Shown here: piece after piece, positions 21,597-51,994 of the stretch
Numbering within the stretch: the stretch's first letter is position 1
Layout: every line of letters starts with the position of its first letter
Source of the DNA: a virus
Strand: one strand, 5' to 3'
Virus record (IMG/VR): IMGVR_UViG_3300030049_000021
Location: 1-54,025 of that record
Length of the DNA stretch: 54,025 nucleotides
Program-made: the position numbers and the translations under genes
Notes under the pieces: generated by a model
Database searches by the model: none
Seen by the model: the letters and a program-made list of their open reading frames with translations, nothing else
What the model was told of the DNA's origin: nothing

Positions 21597-21602
21597 TATA
21601 AT
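21597..21602 (+). promoter_or_regulatory. Putative promoter -10 box upstream of small RNA
   Basis: TATAAT consensus hexamer in the gap after 21532. No good -35 is seen at the normal distance. Confidence 0.5.
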
Positions 21603-21608
21603 TAAAGA

Positions 21609-21761
21609 GCCAGTGGAAGCTGGCCCCGAATGGCACCTCGGGCGACGGACTATTACAGCATGAAATTTCATACCGCAATAAGAACCCTACAGGGGGCGAT
21701 GGGCAGCCGAGTAATAGCGGCTTGGGTGCCAACCTTGCCTACGTCCCTTGTAGGCTTTTTT
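21609..21761 (+). ncRNA. Candidate small structured RNA
   Basis: About 150 bases with no ORF, starting just after a TATAAT box and ending in an intrinsic terminator. Stems visible: GCCAG/CTGGC (21610-21626), CCGA/TCGG nearby, a perfect palindrome ATGAAATTTCAT (21660-21671), and GGCA...TGCC around GCCG/CGGC (21702-21730). It could be a stand-alone sRNA or a leader or attenuator of the nuclease gene at 21775. No known riboswitch consensus was recognised. Confidence 0.5.
21737..21761 (+). terminator. Intrinsic terminator
   Basis: GCCTAC/GTAGGC stem with a seven-base loop, followed by six T residues, 14 bases before ATG 21775. Confidence 0.85.
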
Positions 21762-21774
21762 GTGTGTGAATTTT

Positions 21775-24209: not shown

Positions 24210-25009
24210 GGCACCTCCGCAATTCCCGGACCAAAAAGCAACTCCGCAAAACACCTCCGAACTCCGCAAAACGCTCTAAAATTTGCGGAGTTCAGTTCAA
24301 ATCATACCAAAACATTGCGGAGTTCCGCGCGCGCGTGGTTTAGAATCTACTATATAGAGAGACTATACATGCGTATGCGCGTAGTCTCCGGGAAATCATT
24401 GCGGTTTTGCGGAGTTCAGTTCAAATTACTAGGTTTTCGTTTCGGAGTTGATTTGCGGATAGGGCGTTTTGGTATGCTTCGGGTCCTCTCTTTTAACCAA
24501 AAAGTGTGCATAACCCCTGTATGACCGTGCCGGTCAAGCCAAACCTTCCACCGATTCCAAGCGGAAAATAAGCGAGAGACCGCCTTTTTGGTTTTGGCAT
24601 CCTCTCACTGGTTTCAAACAACCCCCGATTTGCCGTCTGCTTGCCGATTCTAGGCCCGTTACCCCGATTTGGCGTGTTTCCGGGCATAGAGGCGGGTATA
24701 GAGGGCACTAAACGCGAAATTTTCGGAGGGCCGCGCTGCGGGAGTCAATGACCCATCAATGACGGGTAGCCGTTTCCCGTTTAATAACCGGCAAAAAACG
24801 CCCGCGCGCGGAGTGAATTATTGTAAATATTCAGTGAGCGTATCATGAACTGTCGGGGAACTTCGGTGAATGCGGGCGGGATATCATGGATATCTCTTGA
24901 AAAACCGTTGAAATTCACAATAAAACCCGAAGAAAAACGCCGCGCCCGCGCGTGTGCGCGAGTCGAGGGCCCCTTCAGGGCCTTCCGCGCGCGTCCGCCA
25001 ACAAAAGTA
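24210..25009. other. Non-coding region, probable replication origin
   Basis: 800 bases without a convincing gene. The first 260 hold clustered short repeats and a 7-bp-stem hairpin (GAGACTA/TAGTCTC, 24357-24387). The rest has AT-rich stretches, CG-alternating tracts (CGCGCGCG) and a GATATC-ATG-GATATC inverted repeat near 24880. Position after the primase-helicase supports an origin. Confidence 0.6.
24215..24460. repeat. Iteron-like repeats (CTCCGCAA / TTGCGGAG)
   Basis: Forward copies CTCCGCAA at 24215, 24242 and 24262. Inverted copies TTGCGGAG at 24283, 24315 and 24407, with partial copies near 24255, 24399, 24441 and 24453. A perfect 21-bp direct repeat beginning TTTGCGGAGTTC occurs at 24282-24302 and 24406-24426. 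Arrangement and position are those of initiator-binding iterons. Confidence 0.75.
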
Positions 25010-27527: not shown

Positions 27528-27842
27528 TTATTTGACTCCAAAATACTTCTCAATCTCAGCGGTAAACCCGTGCTCATACAGCCATAGCCGGGCGTCGGAC
27601 GGGCTGAGCGCCAACAGTTTCGTACCGGCCACCTGCAAACCCTTTTCGTCGCGACTCGCGTAAGGCGTGAGGCTCCCGCCGACCCCAACGATAAACCAGT
27701 TGCCAAACATGGACCGATAAAGTTCTTCCGTGCGGTGGTGCAGCTCGCTCACCATCTGGCTGCTAGGGGCCTTTGCCGAGGCGATCATCTTTGTACCAGG
27801 TGCGTCCGTGTCGTATACGCTTTGTTCAATTTTTCGCCTCAT
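27528..27842 (-). CDS. Hypothetical protein
   Basis: 104 residues, alpha/beta (MVSELHHRTEELYRSMFGNWFIVGVGGS). No family recognised. ATGA overlap with the Cys-repeat gene. Confidence 0.65.
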   Translation of the reverse strand: MRRKIEQSVYDTDAPGTKMIASAKAPSSQMVSELHHRTEELYRSMFGNWFIVGVGGSLTPYASRDEKGLQVAGTKLLALSPSDARLWLYEHGFTAEIEKYFGVK

Positions 27843-28360
27843 TCGACTCCCGCTAGGCGCTTAATATCGGCCAACGCAACCTCGTTGGACTCATAAAATC
27901 GCACTGGCGAGATCGGATAGCCAGACGCTTTGTAAATCTGCATAGCGGCAAACTCCGTGGACGTCCGCTTTTCGAGCGCGTAGCCCGCTTCACCCGCCAA
28001 ATGTACGGCCCACCCAGCTCGGCAATGAGTCGTACCGCAGGTATGCCAGGTGGACATTTCCAACCCGACGGTTTGGATTGCATCGTAAATGGCCTTGTGA
28101 ATATTCGGGATTGAGGGTATTTCAGGTGGCTCGATAGGCCGAGGTGCCATACCGCTACAACGGCTACAACCGCTACAACCGCTACAATCGCTACAATCGC
28201 TACAACCGCGACAACGGCTACAACCGCGACAACCGCGACAACCAAGGAGACTCGCTAAAGCTCGCCTCGCGGCGTCCTCCGATCCAAAATAAGCGACCGA
28301 TGCGGTGTTACCGTTGGCGTCGGTTATGACACCATCTACAAATTCAAGTTGTGTTTCCAT
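27839..28360 (-). CDS. Cysteine-triplet repeat protein
   Basis: 173 residues. Residues about 40-70 consist of ten C-x-x triplets with x-x = RG, SR, SD or SG (for example CRGCRGCSRCRGCSDC). The C-terminal domain has MSTWHTCGTTHCRAGWAVHLAGEAGYALE and AAMQIYKASG, a pattern seen in phage proteins of unknown function. The Cys block could bind several metal ions or be crosslinked. The leaderless-type promoter TATGAT lies seven bases before ATG. It leads a three-gene unit. Confidence 0.7.
   Translation of the reverse strand: METQLEFVDGVITDANGNTASVAYFGSEDAARRALASLLGCRGCRGCSRCRGCSDCSDCSGCSGCSRCSGMAPRPIEPPEIPSIPNIHKAIYDAIQTVGLEMSTWHTCGTTHCRAGWAVHLAGEAGYALEKRTSTEFAAMQIYKASGYPISPVRFYESNEVALADIKRLAGVE
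28151..28242. repeat. 9-bp tandem repeat encoding Cys-x-x triplets
   Basis: About ten units of a degenerate 9-mer (plus strand CCGCTACAA and variants such as CGGCTACAA, TCGCTACAA, CCGCGACAA). The array can expand or contract by slippage without changing frame. Confidence 0.85.
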
Positions 28361-29308: not shown

Positions 29309-29683
29309 ATGAAGAGATTACTTCTCGCCGCGTCCCTCACCATTTTCGCGCCCGTGGCCTACACTCAGTCGTTGCCAACGCTGACAGCTCCAGCTAACGC
29401 AACCCCGGCGATCTACTACGATGCACGACTGAAAGTCCCCGGCGCTGTCCTGATCTCGCGGCTCGACACCCTCAAAAAGCTGTCGCTGGATGTGCAGGCA
29501 ATCTACGGCGCTGAAAGCTCCGACACTCATTACCGATCGACGGTCGGACTTCTGGGCCTCGGGCTCACTCACACGTTCCCATTACTCTCGCACGTAACTG
29601 GGACATTTGGCGTTGCCGTGACAGTCACGAGCGGCCAGCAGCCGAGCGGCGGGGCTATCGCTTGTCTGGGGTGGAAGTTCTAG
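29309..29683 (+). CDS. Secreted protein with Sec signal peptide
   Basis: 124 residues from ATG 29309. MKRLLLAASLTIFAPVAYTQ is a textbook signal peptide with cleavage near AYTQ. The mature part has alternating beta strands (VGLLGLGLTHTFPLLSHVTGTFGVAVTV) and ends in aromatic Phe (GWKF), as outer-membrane barrel proteins do. A phage-encoded envelope protein suggests superinfection exclusion or lysogenic-conversion-type surface change (inference). Confidence 0.7.
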   Translation: MKRLLLAASLTIFAPVAYTQSLPTLTAPANATPAIYYDARLKVPGAVLISRLDTLKKLSLDVQAIYGAESSDTHYRSTVGLLGLGLTHTFPLLSHVTGTFGVAVTVTSGQQPSGGAIACLGWKF

Positions 29684-29693
29684 TTCGGGCCTG

Positions 29694-29702
29694 TGATATA
29701 AT
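29694..29702 (+). promoter_or_regulatory. Extended -10 promoter of the large RNA
   Basis: TGA-TATAAT extended -10, immediately before the structured non-coding segment. No matching -35 is obvious. Confidence 0.6.
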
Positions 29703-29708
29703 AACCCC

Positions 29709-30319
29709 GTCCCTTCAGGTCGGTGTTCATCGGGCGGTTGTGAGTGGCCGCCCAGTCCTTCGGCTTGGAACGGAAAGGACTATAACAATTTAACCTTTTC
29801 TAAATTACACCAATAGGTTTAAGGAGAGAAAGGCGGAACCGATCACGTAATAGATGGTGAAATAGGTAATAAGCGTGGCCTCTGAAATAAAGTGGTCTGG
29901 CGGGAAGGAAAGACTCCACATTGTTCGTAAAAACAACAGGCCGGTAGGCGATCCGAAAATGGATCATATGCCGAACCGGCCAACAATTTGAACCGAAAGG
30001 TTCGTTAGAGCTGCTAGGGTCGCTCCCTAGATGATGTTGGAGACACGGGGGAAACAACAAAGAATAGGCGAAAGCTAAAGCCCGACCAATTTTGGCCCGC
30101 GAGTTTTATTCACACGCTTGATGAGCGGGCCGATATCCTTCACGTGGAGCGTGTTTGGCTTAATGGCCGATTTACGAGACTCACGATCCAGCCTTTAACC
30201 CCCACGAATTCGAGGGGTTTAATCCGGGTTAAACTAACCGCATCGTTGATGCTGCTTAGTCGGGAATCCTAGTTACTCGAAACTCACTAGAAAGGTCTTT
30301 TTTTGAGTAGCTTTCTAGT
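29709..30319 (+). ncRNA. Large ornate structured RNA candidate (GOLLD/ROOL-like setting)
   Basis: About 610 bases with no credible ORF and many perfect or near-perfect stems. Examples: GGGCGG/CCGCCC (about 29731-29752); AGTCC/GGACT around it; a three-part stem GGCCGGT...ACCGGCC enclosing GGC/GCC and GATCC/GGATC (about 29939-29981); GAACC-GAAA-GGTTC tetraloop hairpin (about 29991-30004); CTAGGG/CCCTAG (about 30014-30030); GGCCCGC/GCGGGCC (about 30094-30137); TAACCCC/GGGGTTTA (about 30197-30220); and ACTAGAAAG/CTTTCTAGT (30286-30319). It has its own extended -10 promoter. Giant RNAs of the GOLLD and ROOL classes occur in phages beside tRNA clusters, as here. I cannot confirm which class, if any, it belongs to. 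Confidence 0.7.
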
Positions 30320-30339
30320 AGCCGTGTTAACCTAACCCC

Positions 30340-30918
30340 ATGCCAACCTACAAAGGTGCCGACACCACCGACCTTCTAACCGCCGACAATATCAGAGGCC
30401 TCGCGTTCATCGGCAAATACTGCGCTGACACCCCATCATTCCCGGACAAGCGATTAACCCACTCTGAGAAGGCGAGCCTCAAAGCCGCTGGTATCCCGTC
30501 GTTTTTTCTCTATGAGCGCGGCAACACCGCCGACTATTTCACCGGCGAGCAGGGTGCAGCCGATGCAGCGGCAACCGTCGCTTATTTCCAAGAGCTAGGC
30601 GTACCTGCGGGAATTCCGTGCTTTGCCTGCTACGACGATGATTTCAGCCCGTCGCAAATCATGGCGTATGCCCTTGCGTTTCACGATGAGATGAAAAGCT
30701 CGGGCTATCTCGCTGGTGCTTACGGTTCCGGACTCGTGCTAGGTGTGCTTCTGGCAGCGGGTATTATTCACTATTCGATGCTATCGAACGCTAAGGGGTG
30801 GCAGGGATACGACGATTTCCTAGGCAAGCAAGATATTCTGCAGCTCACTGGGTCTGCTAATGGGTTAAACTCAGATCCCGACGAGGCGACCAGCCTTGAT
30901 GGGTGGAGTTGGCTTTAG
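30340..30918 (+). CDS. Endolysin-like glycoside hydrolase (DUF1906 family)
   Basis: 192 residues. It starts MPTYKGADTTDLLTADNIRG and has FIGKYCADTP, LYERGNTADYFTGEQGAADA, GIPCFACYDDDF and AGAYGSGLVLG, which is the TIM-barrel pattern of DUF1906 (Rv2525c-like glycoside-hydrolase-like domain) used in phage endolysins and cell-wall enzymes. The acidic residues in CYDDDF and the Glu of LYERG are candidate catalytic groups. No signal peptide, so a holin would be needed. Small membrane proteins follow after the tRNA cluster. Confidence 0.85.
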   Translation: MPTYKGADTTDLLTADNIRGLAFIGKYCADTPSFPDKRLTHSEKASLKAAGIPSFFLYERGNTADYFTGEQGAADAAATVAYFQELGVPAGIPCFACYDDDFSPSQIMAYALAFHDEMKSSGYLAGAYGSGLVLGVLLAAGIIHYSMLSNAKGWQGYDDFLGKQDILQLTGSANGLNSDPDEATSLDGWSWL

Positions 30919-30947: not shown

Positions 30948-31022
30948 GGACGGTTCGCCTAGTGGTATGGCCCTAGAATTTGGATCTAGTACGCGGGTGT
31001 TCGATTCACTCACCGTCTGCCA
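30948..31022 (+). tRNA. tRNA-Gln (UUG)
   Basis: Acceptor GGACGGT/ACCGTCT (one G-U), D stem GCC/GGC, anticodon stem CTAGA/TCTAG with loop ATTTGGA, T loop TTCGATT, encoded CCA. Confidence 0.93.
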
Positions 31023-31042
31023 ACTTTCGGTATCATTCACGT

Positions 31043-31120
31043 GCGGTCGTGGCTCAGTGGTATACAGCGCTGGTCTCCAAAACCAGTATTTCGCGCGTTC
31101 GAATCGCGCCGACCGTGCCA
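31043..31120 (+). tRNA. tRNA-Trp (CCA)
   Basis: Acceptor GCGGTCG/CGACCGT, anticodon stem CTGGT/ACCAG with loop CTCCAAA, T loop TTCGAAT, encoded CCA. Confidence 0.93.
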
Positions 31121-31208
31121 ACCTTTAGGGTATAGTCAAGCCCTCATGTTGCAAAACCTGAACCACTCGTATTTATCATCCTCGTACCTCAGTTATTGAC
31201 AACTGACG

Positions 31209-31299
31209 GGAAGGGTGGCAGAGTGATTTATTGCCTTAGTCTTGAAAACTAATAGTCGGTATGACCGACACCAGGGTTTGAATCCCTGTCCTTCCTCCA
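31209..31299 (+). tRNA. tRNA-Ser (UGA)
   Basis: Acceptor GGAAGGG/TCCTTCC, anticodon stem TTAGT/ACTAA with loop CTTGAAA, long variable arm GTCGG/CCGAC, encoded CCA. Confidence 0.93.
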
Positions 31300-31311
31300 A
31301 CTTTATTTCTT

Positions 31312-31397
31312 GCTAGGTTGGCCGAGTGGACGATGGCAGATGCCTGTAAAGCAGATCCGTAAAAAGCACGTAGGTTCGAATCCTACACCTAGCACCA
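31312..31397 (+). tRNA. tRNA-Tyr (GUA), imperfect anticodon stem
   Basis: Acceptor GCTAGGT/ACCTAGC, D stem GCC/GGC, anticodon loop CTGTAAA, T arm GTAGG/CCTAC, encoded CCA. The anticodon stem is weak: GATGC opposite GCAGA pairs at only three positions, or needs a two-base bulge. The region after it (GATCCGTAAAAAGCAC) would be the class II variable arm expected of bacterial tRNA-Tyr. Possibly degenerate. Confidence 0.8.
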
Positions 31398-31407
31398 ACT
31401 ACATTTC

Positions 31408-31485
31408 GGGTCACTGGTGCAACTGGTAGACGCAAAAGGCTTAAACCCTTTCCAAGTCTGAGTTCGAATCTCAGGTGACCCACCA
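31408..31485 (+). tRNA. tRNA-Leu (UAA) with short variable loop
   Basis: Acceptor GGGTCAC/GTGACCC, anticodon stem AAAGG/CCTTT with loop CTTAAAC, T arm CTGAG/CTCAG, encoded CCA. Only six bases (CCAAGT) separate anticodon and T stems, whereas bacterial tRNA-Leu normally has a long variable arm. Confidence 0.88.
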
Positions 31486-31490
31486 CATAT

Positions 31491-31568
31491 CCCCTGCTGG
31501 GCAAATTGGTAAAGTCGTCTGATTTAGGATCAGAAGTTATCTCAGTTCAAGTCTGAGGCGGGGGACCA
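31491..31568 (+). tRNA. tRNA-Leu (UAG) with short variable loop
   Basis: Acceptor CCCCTGC/GCGGGGG, anticodon stem TCTGA/TCAGA with loop TTTAGGA, T arm CTCAG/CTGAG, encoded CCA. The variable region is six bases (AGTTAT), again class I in shape. Confidence 0.88.
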
Positions 31569-31575
31569 ATTTCAC

Positions 31576-31665
31576 GGATGCGTGTCGGAGCGGCTTATCG
31601 AGCTTGATTGCTAATCAAAAGGGCTGAAACACGTCCCCCGAGTTCGAATCTCGGCGCATCCTCCA
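31576..31665 (+). tRNA. tRNA-Ser (GCU)
   Basis: Acceptor GGATGCG/CGCATCC, anticodon loop TTGCTAA, long variable arm with GGG/CCC, T arm CCGAG/CTCGG, encoded CCA. Confidence 0.92.
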
Positions 31666-51561: not shown

Positions 51562-51591
51562 TCAAATCACGGGCGGTGCGGGTCCATTTTT

Positions 51592-51994
51592 AATTGTTTA
51601 ACGTGAAACAATTGCCGGTTGCAGGCGAGCGACCGGCTTGGCCGGGTCAGTGTCTCCGTGACGTGGATCATGCGATTCTCGGCGCAACGCGCTCCGAAAC
51701 GTTTGCCCTCACGAATCGACTCCGGTCGATTGTGAACTATAGCCCTTCATAAACAATATTATCGGAGCCCTGGTTCGTGGGTTCAGATAATATTTATTAT
51801 GACAGGGCGAACTTGTCATTGCCGAGGCCCACCAAACCGGTTGCCGCGAACCGGCTCCTGGTAAGGTACAAACAACTTGGAACGAAGCGACAAGTATGGC
51901 GACATGAGGCATAAGGTGACGACATCCCAGTAAACGGACTCATAGCTAGTTGGACGCCTCTTCACGTCCAACTTGGAATCACAAATTGTTGTGA
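51592..51994 (+). ncRNA. Structured RNA segment before and into a start-less tail gene
   Basis: About 400 bases with a chain of perfect stems: AATTGTTT/AAACAATT (51592-51613), GCCGGT/ACCGGC (51614-51637), GTCA/TGAC (51646-51662), AATCGAC/GTCGATT with TCCG loop (51714-51731), AATATTATC/GATAATATT (51755-51794), CCGGTT/AACCGG (51837-51854), ACTTG/CAAGT (51875-51895), GTTGGACG/CGTCCAAC (51949-51972) and TCACAA/TTGTGA (51979-51994). There is no convincing ORF before 51915. It may be an mRNA leader, an independent RNA, or an intron; group I or II core motifs were not found. Confidence 0.6.

Follow-up and report, generated by a model that had tools for sequence, protein, structure and literature searches.

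Several large phage RNAs, unrelated to one another, share a similar genomic setting next to tRNA and lysis genes. ROOL forms an octameric RNA nanocage. OLE is a large structured RNA of ~600 nt and is not known as a phage tRNA-island RNA. GOLLD often exceeds 800 nt. It is found in phages, often near tRNA islands, and its expression goes up during lysis; ROOL measures ~550-600 nt, folds elaborately and is carried by phages and prophages, in many cases close to tRNA islands (PMC12286853). The lncRNAs of phage K, a Kayvirus, were detected by RNA-seq, one of them was described with its own promoter, and location and abundance are the only grounds on which the authors compared them with GOLLD and ROOL (PMC9241854). 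The names lnc001 and lnc002 are swapped between the text and Table 1 of that paper (PMC9241854); the two loci are identified here by their coordinates, KF766114 13595-14229 and 37679-38832. One of them is followed by tRNA-Asp, tRNA-Phe, tRNA-Trp, a small ORF, holin and endolysin, all on one strand. No Rfam family covers either lncRNA (L350, L351) at gathering score; a DUF3800-I match just short of its threshold (43.4 vs 44.2 bits) overlaps one of the two.

We analyzed the IMG/VR record IMGVR_UViG_3300030049_000021, a virus contig of 54,025 bases, referred to here at its full length as the window. The virus is a tailed phage, with PHROG matches for TerL, portal and head proteins. A gene-free gap of 656 bases, 29684-30339, is located between two genes on the + strand. 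It is bordered on the 5’ side by a 145-aa ORF without family, whose stop is at 29683, and on the 3’ side by the ATG of an endolysin gene at 30340. Seven tRNA genes begin 0.6 kb downstream of the gap, after the endolysin. The genes flanking the gap and the tRNAs are all on the + strand. The longest + strand ORF in the gap has 43 aa and the longest - strand ORF 86 aa; four short gap ORFs searched against Pfam and PHROG gave no significant match. The main features of the locus are as follows.

29694 to 29702, + strand: extended -10 promoter element TGATATAAT (TGA-TATAAT), a sequence motif
29703 to 30325, + strand: candidate large non-coding RNA, ~600-620 nt (fold z score, no ORF with a family match, no Rfam match)
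30340 to 30918, + strand: endolysin with an Rv2525c-like glycoside hydrolase domain (PF08924 Rv2525c_GlyHyd-like, E 5e-19; PHROG 13480 endolysin, E 2e-8)
30948 to 31665, + strand: seven tRNA genes, Gln, Trp, Ser, Tyr, Leu, Leu and Ser (ARAGORN and Rfam)

A sequence-only reading of this DNA had described a 610-base segment without genes, just upstream of an endolysin and seven tRNA genes. Both descriptions hold. There is no convincing gene in 29684-30339, and the downstream genes are confirmed by the PF08924 and PHROG 13480 matches and by the ARAGORN and Rfam tRNAs. As with tRNA-island lncRNAs, a long ORF-free segment adjoins tRNA and lysis genes. The closest parallel is phage K, in which long RNAs outside Rfam are also located by tRNA and lysis genes. 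The phage K lncRNAs were seen by RNA-seq, whereas the RNA here is a candidate predicted from sequence; in addition, here the endolysin is located between the RNA and the tRNAs. The sequence-only reading held that GOLLD and ROOL occur in exactly this setting. The setting does resemble theirs, though it resembles that of the unclassified phage K lncRNAs just as closely.

The promoter element at 29694-29702 is the sole TGnTATAAT on both strands of the window, where shuffles predict ~1.0 anywhere. The chance of finding one within ~40 relevant bases on the correct strand is on the order of P = 0.0004, which is a guide only, as the place was noticed first. No good -35 hexamer was seen upstream of the element. 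Based on the -10 spacing, transcription is expected to start at ~29708-29710. The segment had been credited with its own extended -10 promoter, TGA-TATAAT, and the motif is indeed present and unique in the window. Like tRNA-island lncRNAs, the segment combines a promoter of its own, recognized by its motif, with an excess of secondary structure.

The predicted fold is composed of the following elements.

29705 to 30050, + strand: domain I, with closing stem CCCCGU/ACGGGG (29705-29710 with 30045-30050; pair probability 0.83; domain z -3.51)
29732 to 29753, + strand: hairpin GGGCGGUU-GUGAGU-GGCCGCCC (pair probability 0.96)
29934 to 30039, + strand: multibranch core with a 5-bp closing stem (29934-29938/30035-30039), three hairpins and A-rich linkers (MFE and centroid identical; 29918-30053 z -4.41)
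29939 to 29981, + strand: core hairpin with a GAAAAU loop
29990 to 30003, + strand: core hairpin with a GAAA tetraloop
30014 to 30030, + strand: core hairpin with a UCGCU loop
30067 to 30273, + strand: domain II, with closing stem CCCGAC/GUCGGG (30081-30086/30259-30264; main stems, pair probability 0.65-0.98)
30092 to 30133, 30155 to 30170 and 30240 to 30252, + strand: hairpins of domain II, with a palindrome at 30195 to 30222 (inverted repeats, pair probabilities)
30286 to 30319, + strand: 3’ hairpin ACUAGAAAG/CUUUCUAGU, 9 bp, with a U7 run inside the loop and no run after it (pair probability 0.85)

The closing stem of domain I is doubtful, because its 5’ arm overlaps the expected start site and may lie partly outside the transcript. 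In the 29732-29753 hairpin, every base of the 6-nt GUGAGU loop has its complement in ACUCAC at 30179-30184 and again at 30282-30287, which could allow a pseudoknot or kissing contact. Two copies of ACUCAC are found in shuffles with P ~0.003, a value for one of four loops examined, and the contact is therefore a suggestion and not a result. A loop-stem triple helix at 30286-30319 was also considered and dropped on geometric grounds.

Comparison with shuffled sequences indicated that the segment folds better than expected by chance. On the + strand, the whole segment (29699-30322) reaches -203.3 kcal/mol and a z score of -3.42 (20 shuffles), compared to -1.56 on the - strand. The z score is -3.51 for the domain at 29703-30055, with none of 100 shuffles as good, and -4.41 for the 136-nt core at 29918-30053, with none of 200 as good. 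The 3’ part, 30054-30325, is weaker (z -2.62), and much of the 3’ half exceeds chance by a modest margin only. Since the core was chosen after its fold was known, the entire window was scanned as a check. Among 3080 windows of 140 nt on both strands, windows over the core rank 4th on the - strand and 6th and 9th on the + strand, placing them within the top 0.3% of 140-nt windows in the 54 kb. When the core is taken by itself the two strands score alike, as would be expected where perfect stems dominate; the strand asymmetry holds for the whole segment only. The scan located the folding peak at 29890-30066. Folding is weak near the endolysin start codon, and parts of the segment are no better than shuffles.

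Hairpins are also in excess. The gap contains seven that are strictly Watson-Crick, with a stem of at least 5 bp and a loop of 3-8 nt, compared to 3.0 ± 1.5 in dinucleotide shuffles; seven or more were found in 3 of 200. The sequence-only reading had counted at least eight perfect stems. That count is fair if the long-range stems and the 8-bp stem at 29732-29753, which includes G-U pairing, are added to the seven, and the GAAA tetraloop hairpin that it listed is present at 29990-30003. In the same folding test, a genuine ROOL from pMP118 has a z score of -1.1, and the phage K lncRNAs have -1.4 and -7.2. The score of the segment is thus in the range of real phage lncRNAs, although the score alone is no proof. 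Single-sequence evidence gives good support to reading the segment as a large and highly structured non-coding RNA.

This RNA does not appear to belong to a described family. Rfam gave no match in the segment at the gathering threshold, and cmscan at E<=10 gave none inside it. The one weak sub-threshold match of cmscan at E<=10 is outside the segment, Ms_AS-4 at 29606-29669 (21.4 vs 50 bits). The sequence-only reading had proposed the Rfam GOLLD, ROOL and OLE models as a check. Dedicated searches of the whole record with ROOL (RF03087), GOLLD (RF02032) and OLE (RF01071) returned nothing at E<=10. The same search recovers ROOL in pMP118 with 130 bits and E 1e-29 (gathering score 99.1 bits), a positive control for ROOL and not for GOLLD or OLE. 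The candidate is like ROOL in size, phage occurrence, tRNA-island setting and elaborate fold, like GOLLD as a large phage RNA near tRNAs, and like OLE as a structured RNA of ~600 nt. However, none of the three covariance models, including the conserved 3’ region of GOLLD, matches it, and GOLLD is often the longer RNA. The location is of the ROOL kind (phage, prophage or plasmid, often near a tRNA island) but is not specific. Strongly diverged membership in ROOL, GOLLD or OLE would explain the similar length and the tRNA/lysis setting; given the silence of both the permissive and the dedicated searches, we consider it highly improbable. The earlier suggestion of a divergent GOLLD or ROOL is not borne out, as the models are silent and the ROOL control works. 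The other part of that reading, a large structured non-coding RNA, stands on the fold z scores and hairpin excess of this single sequence. The segment may represent a new RNA class.

Searches for homologues recovered only the phage itself. Three IMG/VR contigs carry the segment at 100% identity, and these are the same phage; within their main aligned blocks, 12-21 kb in length, its contigs show 0-21 mismatches. Only short chance matches were found by blastn against 50,697 INPHARED phages (to E 10) and 72,556 PLSDB plasmids (to E 1). Five 16-base patterns across the RNA, scanned over IMG/VR, rose above background only in the same phage. A covariance model of the 136-nt core matched only itself in ~2.6 Mb of loci and ten whole records, and it has no similarity to the phage K lncRNAs (best 8.5 bits vs 176 for itself). 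The 80 viral and 80 genomic loci that were fetched gave no segment match where searched. By TerL, two phages are related at 64-66% identity; the structural module is syntenic in one of them, and neither contig contains tRNAs, such an endolysin or such an RNA. The relative G002 has the structural module in common with our phage at ~36-70% identity, and its contig is without tRNAs, the Rv2525c-like endolysin and the candidate RNA. Because the copies found are all identical and these searches returned no diverged homologue, there are no compensatory changes to count as covariation.

A KilA-N remnant at 30188-30231 was considered, as the blastn matches there fall in KilA-N genes, and in a pCY360 remnant of one, that carry a similar CGAATTCG palindrome. 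It was rejected because, in tblastn, two KilA-N proteins align over the palindrome motif and nothing beyond it. KilA-N genes of unrelated bacteria (L096, L097, L098 and L099) share a near-palindromic AACCCCTCGAATTCGAGGGGTT-like stretch that encodes KPLEFEGF-like residues.

The main rival to a stand-alone RNA is a long structured 5’ leader, since there is no clear terminator between the segment and the endolysin. The promoter at 29694 would then drive one endolysin-tRNA transcript, and the leader would delay or gate endolysin translation or stabilize the mRNA. A terminator scan before the endolysin reported nothing at 30286-30319, where the hairpin departs from the canonical intrinsic form, and transcription may therefore read through into the endolysin. 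A leader would also suit the endolysin and tRNAs directly downstream on the same strand, the mutually exclusive pairings that the 3’ elements at 30271-30319 appear capable of from their sequence, and the endolysin start, where inspection of the upstream sequence found no Shine-Dalgarno sequence. However, such sequences are also absent from many other genes of the same phage, ~600 nt is long for a phage leader, and the strongest folding, at 29890-30066, is far from the start codon. We regard a leader as unlikely.

The stems could also have arisen by chance in a spacer or decayed sequence, or the segment could function at the DNA level, as a protein-binding or recombination site near the tRNA genes. 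The palindrome at 30195-30222 and the parts that fold no better than shuffles are compatible with this, as is finding neither homologues nor covariation. Against this reading, the segment as a whole folds with strand asymmetry, contains a core with a z score of -4.4 and an excess of hairpins, and has a promoter motif at its edge; the short ORFs tested show no trace of a protein family. This alternative seems quite improbable.

We consider it probable that the segment is a real, orphan, stand-alone large phage lncRNA of the tRNA-island kind, ~600 nt in length. The gap, the promoter motif, the folding excess on the + strand and the setting are direct observations. A host-type polymerase would start the RNA at the extended -10 promoter just upstream, and the transcript would fold into at least two domains between its predicted ends. 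The 5’ domain would have a four-helix junction at its heart, with A-rich linkers and the GAAA hairpin, and the 3’ domain plus the terminal hairpin would complete the fold. Pairing of the GUGAGU loop with a downstream ACUCAC may tie the domains together as a tertiary contact. By analogy with ROOL, GOLLD and the phage K lncRNAs, the RNA could act as a stable, abundant scaffold made during infection; self-assembly of the ROOL or GOLLD sort is a guess. We think it rather unlikely that the RNA founds a new class of large ornate phage RNA, unrelated in sequence to ROOL and GOLLD and convergent with them, in which a scaffold or cage made of RNA only is formed by tRNA and lysis genes. If the stand-alone RNA is real, it would be a further independent example and would add weight to the view that the position reflects a shared job in infection and not the history of one RNA family. 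It would also add one more candidate large RNA for cryo-EM and infection RNA-seq.

Additional elements were observed in the record. On the + strand, 21597-21766 contains TATAAT followed by ~160 strongly folded nt (z -3.8); at the end of this stretch, a hairpin and T run resemble an intrinsic terminator. It looks like a separate small RNA gene, with no Rfam match. Another strongly structured non-coding stretch on the + strand, 51562-51945 (z -3.4; 300-nt windows near -5), separates a short ORF from a long one; G002 lacks it at the syntenic position, so it looks like an insert. Repeated AACTCCGCAAAA and TTGCGGAGTT motifs in both orientations are found at 24210-24480, just after the primase/helicase gene. 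They are origin-iteron-like, and the best-folding 140-nt window of the record is located among them. In the - strand ORF at 27839-28360, a long tandem repeat rich in Cys (CRGCSDCSDCSGCSGCS) precedes a PHROG 31265-like domain.
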